From: Corynebacterium aurimucosum ATCC 700975
GTDB lineage: Bacteria; Actinomycetota; Actinomycetes; Mycobacteriales; Mycobacteriaceae
NCBI RefSeq assembly: GCF_000022905.1
Contig: NC_012590.1
Span: forward strand, 2,046,001-2,110,000
Direction of reading: 5' to 3'
DNA length: 64,000 bases
The notes under the pieces were generated by a model, which worked only from the letters and a program-made list of their open reading frames with translations, made no database searches and was not told where the DNA came from. Each line of letters starts with the position of its first letter. The stretch's first letter is position 1. Shown here piece after piece: positions 54,204 through 55,229 of the stretch. The position numbers and the translations under genes were made by a program.

Positions 54204-55229
54204 ATGTCTTCAACATCGAACAGTGCTGAACTAACCAGCATTTCAGTTACACCGCCGAGCTACCGGCATGATCCTTCAGCCCGCATCCGCGCCATCAATT
54301 GGAACCGGGTGAGCGATGACAAGGATCTTGAAGTGTGGAACCGTCTCACCGCTAACTTTTGGTTGCCAGAGAAGGTCCCGCTTTCTAATGATCTCCCGGC
54401 ATGGCAGAGGATGACACCCGAGGAACGCAACCTCACCATGCGGGTGTTCACGGGACTCACCACCCTGGATACTGTCCAGGCCACCGTGGGTGAAATCTGT
54501 CAGATTCAAGATGCCCGCACCGAACACGAGGAGGCCGTGTATACCAACATCGCCTTCATGCAGTCAGTCCATGCCCGTTCTTACTCTTCAGTGTTTTCTA
54601 CCCTGAGCAGTACAAAGGAAATTGATGAAGCATACCGCTGGGCGGTGAATAATGACCTTCTCCAGGCACGCGCCAAGAAAGTGCTCGCGCACTATTTTGG
54701 GCCGGATCCACTGAAACGCAAGGTGTCATCGACGCTGCTTTCCTCGCTGCTTCTCTACGCGGGTTTCTATCTTCCCTTGCACTTTTCTGTCCACGCCACC
54801 CTGACAAATACGGCAGACATGATTCGCCTCATTCTGCGTGACAAGGCAGTGCACGGCTACTACTCGGGTTACAAGTATCAGCGCGGTCTGGAATCCACGA
54901 CCCCGCTACGGCAGAAGGAAATGCATGATTTCACCATTTCTTTGCTCGAAGAACTTTATGCACTAGAGCTGGACTATTCCGGCGAGCTATATGAGCCTTT
55001 GGGACTCATGGATGATGTAGCCGTGTTCGTTCGCTATAACGCCAATAAGGCACTCATGAATTTGGGCTACCCGGATTATTTCCCGCCCGAAGAAACGGAA
55101 GTGAACCCAGAAATCCTCGCCGCCCTAGCCCCCGGAGCAGATGAGAACCATGACTTCTTCTCTGGATCTGGTTCCTCCTATGTCATTGGTACTGCTGAAG
55201 AAACGAGTGATGATGACTGGGATTTCTAA
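54204..55229 (+). CDS. nrdF: Class Ie (metal-free) ribonucleotide reductase beta subunit, QSK variant
   Basis: The 341-residue radical subunit of a class I reductase, transcribed with nrdI and nrdE. Aligned by spacing to E. coli NrdF (Asp67, Glu98, His101, Tyr105, Glu158, Glu192, His195), the residues here are Asp89, Gln120, His123, Tyr127, Ser180, Lys214 and His217, with no gaps. All three metal-bridging glutamates are lost, replaced by Gln, Ser and Lys. This QSK set defines the metal-free class Ie enzymes of, for example, Streptococcus and Aerococcus, where the tyrosine becomes a DOPA radical with help from NrdI. Length and remaining motifs ([36 protein letters not shown]) are normal, so the change is not decay. 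This is the most distinctive gene in the window. Confidence 0.93.

Follow-up and report, generated by a model that had tools for sequence, protein, structure and literature searches.

A QSK-type class Ie ribonucleotide reductase cassette with its own MntR-like gene in Corynebacterium aurimucosum, a probable acquired backup for manganese starvation

Ribonucleotide reductases (RNRs) of class Ie fall into sequence types that differ in the residues found at the metal site. According to the available part of a recent survey, 275 nrdF genes of the QSK type occur in 266 genomes, all of Actinomycetota, and 40 Corynebacterium species have QSK as their sole RNR (PMC11846895). The same source describes the QSK enzyme of Gardnerella as metal-free and DOPA-forming: DOPA appears in the R2 protein only when NrdI is co-expressed, and activity is confined to the DOPA form. 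Streptococcal and Aerococcus class Ie enzymes are given there as VPK, genes for RNR were counted within 300 nt in the neighbourhood analysis, and a shortage of reduced NrdI is mentioned as a possible limit on assays of QSK enzymes (PMC11846895).

Two cases of metal control are relevant. The class Ie RNR of Streptococcus pyogenes is repressed by manganese and iron, and RNR is listed in the regulon of MtsR, a DtxR-family sensor; the accessible portion of the review states that it is not understood when the class Ie enzyme is used. In Corynebacterium diphtheriae the MntR regulon includes piuB, mntABCD, nrdI-nrdF2, sodA (regulated with the opposite sign) and the oxidoreductase gene DIP2262, which is numbered next to sodA, and MntR can be activated by high iron (PMC13001254, available part). 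MntR control of an nrdI-nrdF pair is therefore already known in the genus.

The window analyzed here is a stretch of 64,000 nucleotides from C. aurimucosum ATCC 700975. Between clpP1 and tig it contains a cassette of approximately 5.5 kb, in which an mntR-like gene, nrdI, nrdE, nrdF, orfX and an FMN reductase gene follow each other on the plus strand:

50643..51323, plus strand: mntR-like gene, 226 aa, MntR paralog with Pfam Fe_dep_repress, Fe_dep_repr_C and FeoA matches
51368..51387, no strand assigned: predicted operator 1, AACTACG-TTGGGC-CGTAGTT, a perfect 7-bp palindrome
51390..51409, no strand assigned: predicted operator 2, AACTACG-CCATTG-CGTAGTT, 22 bp downstream of operator 1
51469..51906, plus strand: nrdI, flavodoxin-like activase (TIGR00333 over cut-off, PF07972; alternative ATG at 51439)
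51957..54152, plus strand: nrdE, R1 (TIGR04170 over cut-off; C-terminal CVSC pair; start as chosen)
54204..55229, plus strand: nrdF, class Ie R2 of the QSK type (open reading frame, NCBIfam, PDB alignment, residue table and tree)
54561..54563, plus strand: codon for Gln120, Glu in class Ib (translation, alignment)
54582..54584, plus strand: codon for Tyr127, the predicted DOPA residue (translation, alignment)
54741..54743, plus strand: codon for Ser180, Glu in class Ib (translation, alignment)
54843..54845, plus strand: codon for Lys214, Glu in class Ib (translation, alignment)
55216..55485, plus strand: orfX, 89 aa from ATG, no family (the mechanical reading frame starts at 55141)
55525..56106, plus strand: NADPH-dependent FMN reductase-like gene, 193 aa, candidate NrdI reductase (PF03358)

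The nrdF reading frame (54204-55229, plus strand) is intact and encodes 341 amino acids. Three metal-binding glutamates of class Ib are replaced in its product by Gln120, Ser180 and Lys214, and Asp89, His123, Tyr127 and His217 of the metal site are retained; our residue table gives all seven residues (D89, Q120, H123, Y127, S180, K214, H217) exactly as the first-pass annotation had read them. The exact spacing to E. coli NrdF that it had reported was reproduced as well: residues 4-319 of 3n37 correspond to residues 26-341 of the window protein with a constant offset of 22, and these equal lengths and constant offset show that there are no shifted glutamates. We take the E. coli ligands to be residues 67, 98, 101, 105, 158, 192 and 195. 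Val, Pro and Lys, the residues of the VPK type, were not found at the three sites of this NrdF. The first-pass annotation had linked the QSK signature to streptococci and Aerococcus, which has to be corrected, as both are VPK and the QSK genomes are all actinomycetotal in the available part of the survey (PMC11846895). The MntR paralog, the tandem operator, the flavin reductase and the signs of transfer described below are additions to that annotation.

Among the 80 loci that were kept, 41 carry a QSK nrdF that also keeps the D/H/Y/H residues and the other 39 are EEE; no intermediate between D-Q-H-Y-S-K-H and D-E-H-Y-E-E-H was seen, so the QSK pattern is not a chance one. Two of the 41 QSK loci additionally carry an EEE nrdF. 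A tree of 40 QSK and 42 EEE distinct NrdF rows placed all QSK rows on one side of a single branch (100/100), with the Gardnerella vaginalis row (L037) inside the QSK clade (branch 100/100). The closest PDB entries by both sequence and structure are 8rag and 8rah, the Gardnerella QSK R2e. An AlphaFold model of NrdF had a mean pLDDT of 85.9, low from residue 311 onward; its superposition (TM ~0.75, rmsd ~8-12 Å) backs the fold and, given this rmsd, not the fine geometry. Alignment with Ib and Ie proteins and modelling, both proposed earlier, thus led to the QSK clade and to 8rag/8rah as the best structural matches, and the class Ie assignment is supported by signature and phylogeny alike. NCBIfam models of class 1b score the protein over cut-off, although the EEE ligands of class Ib are absent. 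Its partners, nrdI and nrdE, are encoded in the cassette as judged by NCBIfam and Pfam. By its sequence the window NrdF is a further member of the published QSK class Ie in Corynebacterium, and by analogy with its homologs it would be metal-free, with Tyr127 converted to DOPA. A QSK nrdF with a single internal TAG was seen in another Corynebacterium (L228, G044:C34:15991-16962).

C. aurimucosum is not a species with QSK as the only RNR. Besides the QSK nrdF its genome holds two EEE nrdF genes, a second nrdE and a second nrdI, so that the second, metal-dependent reductase expected elsewhere by the first-pass annotation is present, judged by sequence. A genome search located the second nrdE, the second nrdI and an EEE nrdF near C2:2.30 Mb. 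The other EEE nrdF (L002, G000:C2:2137557) adjoins a dUTPase gene in an apparent prophage about 27 kb beyond the window. Within the window, the genes at approximately 58900-64000, beyond tRNA-Gly (58926-59000), also resemble a prophage.

The cassette has a GC content of 53%, against 61% for the window. Its DNA is 96-98% identical to that of C. tuberculostearicum, with only 83-90% for clpP2, clpP1 and tig; the corresponding values for C. minutissimum are 96-99% and 91-93%. In C. stercoris, C. phoceense and Corynebacterium sp. NML130628 a cassette 85-97% identical to it is found without the flanking clpP and tig. Cassette genes are 80-86% identical to those of C. striatum (less-aligned ones excepted) and clpP 87-89%; the cassette is thus no better conserved than clpP, which argues against a recent event in that case. 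In the NrdF tree Brachybacterium is the sister of the window group (91/88, a branch without a star), and the NrdF proteins from C. flavescens, C. amycolatum and C. halotolerans are placed apart from this group. Among the matches listed, 25 of 201 Corynebacterium genomes, the window genome included, have an NrdF 97-100% identical to it. We read the cassette from these comparisons as apparently horizontally acquired, and recently so among close species. A location on a known plasmid or phage was considered and dropped, since megablast gave no match in PLSDB; plasmid and phage nrdF genes were at most about 68% identical, with none above 80% among the best 40 of 486 and the best 30 of 719 records. 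No internal stops are present in nrdE. The orfX gene overlaps the 3′ end of nrdF and is conserved after QSK nrdF in Leucobacter, Micrococcus and Gulosibacter (one each). One genome (G090) has two QSK nrdF loci, G090:C49 and G090:C30, each near its own MntR-like gene, and a third MntR-like gene elsewhere.

Across the 2.82 Mb genome the sequence AACTACG-N6-CGTAGTT found before nrdI is matched perfectly just twice, both times here, and the next best matches differ at two positions; allowing as many as three mismatches gave no genome-wide enrichment (65 hits against 164 for a reversed-pattern control). Both the paralog and the palindromes are present in C. tuberculostearicum, C. minutissimum, C. 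stercoris, C. phoceense and one more strain. The tandem spacing of 22-23 bp is kept in near relatives and is less exact in other genera. A promoter scan of the operon found none at the operators (3 in all, against 3.5 in shuffled sequences) and classed operator 2 as a stem resembling a terminator.

A general form, AASTWC(G/A)-N6-(C/T)GWASTT (maximum score 14), was used to score promoters, its consensus having been broadened after visual inspection of some of the sites that it then scored. Of 94 QSK loci (41 + 53), 89 could be scored, L011, L026, L033, L038 and L043 having no suitable upstream nrdI; the 89 include the likely same-species pairs L025/L179, L042/L202 and L028/L190 and six near-identical cassettes (L004-L008, L045). 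A score of at least 12 was reached by 58 of the 89 QSK nrdI promoters, 3 of 35 EEE promoters and 2.1% of shuffles, and a score of at least 13 by 39/89, 0/35 and 0.1%, respectively. A stricter tandem score derived from the window sequence gave at least 19 of 28 in 21/89 QSK, 0/35 EEE and 0/89 shuffled promoters. No clear site was found in 31 of the 89 QSK promoters, including 4/4 from Streptomyces and 7/8 Bifidobacterium/Gardnerella rows. The sites are of two types: type A, that of the window, has CG at its inner ends, and type B (AAGTTCA-N6-TGAACTT) has CA and TG.

The cassette regulator scores below the cut-offs of the NCBIfam MntR and DtxR models; the top model is MntR, and because its 150 bits fall short of the cut-off of 350 we call the protein MntR-like rather than MntR. 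The metal ligands Glu, Glu, His and the His of RRHRL are kept, and Asn stands at the position that we equate with Asp8 of MntR. The recognition helix reads SSVSDAV, with an Asp. The closest PDB relative is 5zr4, presumably MntR (Rv2788) of Mycobacterium tuberculosis. In that protein the recognition helix carries Glu and the metal position Asp; the corresponding residues of the cassette regulator are Asp and Asn.

An MntR-like gene within 3.5 kb (tblastn, E up to 1e-15) accompanies 21 of 31 type A promoters, one of these (L014) by a 30% match, but none of 20 type B promoters and none of 7 ties; it is found at 8 of the 31 promoters with no clear site. No such gene was seen within 3.5 kb at 10 of the 31 type A promoters; at two of them the regulator lies about 3.5 kb away (L020) or just outside the fetched stretch (G064). 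MntR-like genes were also counted in 44 genomes, matches below 38% identity being excluded as DtxR-like. At least two are present in 11 of 12 type A genomes (G072 has one) and a single one in 18 of 19 type B genomes (G045 has three). Tie genomes have one (4/4), genomes with an adjacent regulator and no clear site have two (5/5), and of four genomes without a listed QSK gene three have one and the fourth none. A second MntR paralog next to the operon thus tends to accompany type A and not type B.

The residue in the recognition helix follows the same division. In a regulator tree of 48 rows a single branch (100/96) splits 33 Asp from 14 Glu MntR-like rows. Every tree row for a regulator adjacent to a QSK operon is of the Asp type. 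Where a locus was available for the regulator matches of a genome (30), the regulators of type B and tie genomes have Glu, except one of the three in G045. Most of the Asp group, the window regulator among them, have Asn at the Asp8 position, the rest having Asp or Glu. Two genomes, G020 and G141, have an Asp-type regulator and no listed QSK nrdF. In C. aurimucosum the best type B match (one mismatch) has an mntA-like (ZnuA-family) gene on one side and canonical mntR on the other, a position suggesting that the type B site is the box of canonical MntR; a genome scan for type B with up to two mismatches was not enriched (12 hits against 8 in the control).

A homolog of the FMN reductase-like gene occurs in the stretch of 19 of 41 QSK loci and of 1 of 39 EEE loci (at 35% identity). 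Among 201 Corynebacterium genomes, 58 have the reductase and a listed QSK nrdF, 21 QSK only, 6 the reductase only and 116 neither; with a near-identical group of 27 genomes removed the counts are 31, 21, 6 and 116, uncorrected for relatedness. The QSK counts are a lower bound, as nrdF matches were listed down to about 1e-137. A strict tie to QSK was rejected: 6 of 64 genomes with the reductase have no listed QSK, 21 of 79 QSK genomes have no reductase, and in three close relatives the reductase adjoins sodA, an adjacency that resembles the apparent arrangement of DIP2262. Where the reductase is not beside nrdF, an upstream site scoring at least 12 is present at 8 of 14 loci, a count with no shuffle baseline; at two of these 14 loci (L280, L281) the reductase gene is interrupted by an internal stop. 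Replacement of NrdI by the reductase was also considered, for two Actinotignum loci with no nearby nrdI, and rejected, as nrdI is present elsewhere in both genomes. The flavin reductase looks like a member of an MntR-type response. That it reduces NrdI is our guess from neighbourhood and co-occurrence; it fits the published shortage of reduced NrdI.

A GTP-type PEP carboxykinase gene is divergent to QSK nrdI in Leucobacter, Micrococcus, Gulosibacter, Pseudoglutamicibacter and C. flavescens; Helcobacillus has a partial copy close to QSK nrdI. An example is:

L009:1945-3786, minus strand: PEP carboxykinase variant beside QSK nrdI (also L010, L013, L015, L021, L024, L025 and others)

Compared with 5i67 and 4wiu, the variant has Ile for Lys and Gln for His; the P-loop Cys of 4wiu is Ser in the variant, as it is in 5i67. 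The replaced Lys and His are, we assume, two of the three manganese ligands. Ten of 15 QSK genomes searched hold 11 variant copies, and none was found in the other five (Brevibacterium, C. amycolatum, Brachybacterium and two Actinotignum). All 11 variants have Ile, Gln, Ser and Asp; all nine canonical enzymes examined have Lys, His and Asp, with Cys in eight and Thr in one, two further matches without a locus being outside this count. In Leucobacter sp. 7(1) the variant, on a contig other than that of the nrd locus, is associated with two sites in tandem, spaced by 23 bp, that score 11 and 13. The window host has one PEP carboxykinase match, 43% identical to the variant, which we take as canonical. 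An alanyl-tRNA synthetase paralog lacking the C-terminal part adjoins the QSK nrdF of Brevibacterium (L012:6068-7642, plus strand; L014; L016) and was considered as another possible metal-free substitute.

Residues, phylogeny, gene order, palindromes with their association with regulator type, copy numbers and signs of transfer are all direct observations. The cassette seems to bring its own manganese-sensing switch, and so it is probably a backup for times when manganese runs out; we are fairly confident in regarding it as an acquired manganese-starvation RNR with a dedicated MntR-like sensor. We infer that the paralog, when loaded with manganese (or iron), would bind both palindromes before nrdI and keep the operon off. 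A drop in manganese would release it, and the metal-free enzyme could then substitute for the class Ib enzyme of the host. NrdI would pass an oxidant derived from O2 to NrdF, Tyr127 would be hydroxylated to DOPA, and by analogy the metal-free DOPA radical would start catalysis in NrdE. The flavin reductase probably keeps NrdI reduced, or else may belong to the same starvation response.

The regulator might instead sense chiefly iron or redox state, making the cassette a backup for iron starvation or superoxide; this is unlikely as a separate explanation, and it overlaps with the manganese proposal, which itself allows for iron. The DtxR family does include iron sensors, C. diphtheriae MntR responds to high iron in the accessible text (PMC13001254), and the FMN reductase adjoins sodA in three related genomes. 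On the other hand, MntR ranks first among the NCBIfam models, albeit below its cut-off, the sister operator is found at the mntA-like/mntR locus, and the DtxR-like protein of the host is only 35-36% identical to the cassette regulator. We think it improbable, too, that this is an ordinary QSK operon under NrdR, canonical MntR or DtxR of the host, with an unrelated MntR-like gene as its neighbour. Many Corynebacterium QSK operons would suit such control, as they lack a neighbouring regulator gene and carry a type B site compatible with canonical MntR, and visual inspection showed NrdR-like boxes close to the promoter in other genera. Yet type A tends to accompany an adjacent second MntR-like gene, the perfect site occurs in the host genome only twice, both times at the cassette, and paralog and palindromes are both found in the cassettes of five relatives. 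A decaying or silent cassette yielding no working enzyme is very improbable: the second nrdE, nrdI and EEE nrdF of the host may make it dispensable, but all six genes are open, 25 of 201 Corynebacterium genomes share its NrdF at 97-100% identity among the matches listed, and other QSK enzymes act as sole RNR (PMC11846895, available part).

Full-text searches on Corynebacterium and Actinobacteria, covering few subscription papers, listed no title on a dedicated MntR paralog; as far as these searches go, a cassette with a private MntR-like gene and a matching operator is new. If the manganese-backup proposal is true, a metal-free RNR travels here with its own MntR-like sensor, in testable form and in one lineage. 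The pairing of Asp or Glu in the regulator with G or A in the site would be a natural specificity switch in a metalloregulator, and the flavin reductase could provide the reduced NrdI whose shortage may hold back QSK assays. A broader idea, which we hold only tentatively and would not bet on, is that of a transferable manganese-sparing module made up of the metal-free RNR, a re-aimed MntR paralog (Glu to Asp, with A to G in the half-operator) and a flavin reductase feeding NrdI; elsewhere the PEP carboxykinase variant would serve as a second metal-independent stand-in under the same switch. Should that variant work without manganese, a second metalloenzyme would have been swapped for a site-less version in one response.

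The closest known system is the R2e of Gardnerella vaginalis (Bifidobacterium vaginale; 8rag/8rah), which has the same QSK signature, belongs to the same clade and aligns without gaps to residues 12-341 of the window NrdF. Its operon likewise holds nrdI and nrdE, but in the order nrdHIEF (PMC11846895, available part), and of three Gardnerella promoters one has a marginal operator-like site and two have none, in contrast to the two perfect palindromes of the window. The PF03358 FMN/quinone reductases 1rtt and 3u7r are of the same family as the 55525-56106 product and distant from it (best 77 bits); unlike them, the window flavin reductase stands beside a class Ie nrdF, and beside sodA in three related genomes. 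S. pyogenes class Ie, as far as the review was accessible, is a metal-free RNR repressed by metal, as is proposed for the window cassette; it differs in being a VPK enzyme under a general sensor, whereas the cassette has a QSK enzyme and a predicted dedicated sensor. In the same genus as the window, nrdI-nrdF2 of C. diphtheriae (DIP1923-1924) is an nrdI-nrdF pair under MntR; in the available part of that report no nrdE is listed with it, the MntR is the general one and the enzyme is not called class Ie (PMC13001254), whereas the C. aurimucosum cassette joins a QSK nrdF, its nrdI and nrdE and an MntR-like gene of its own.
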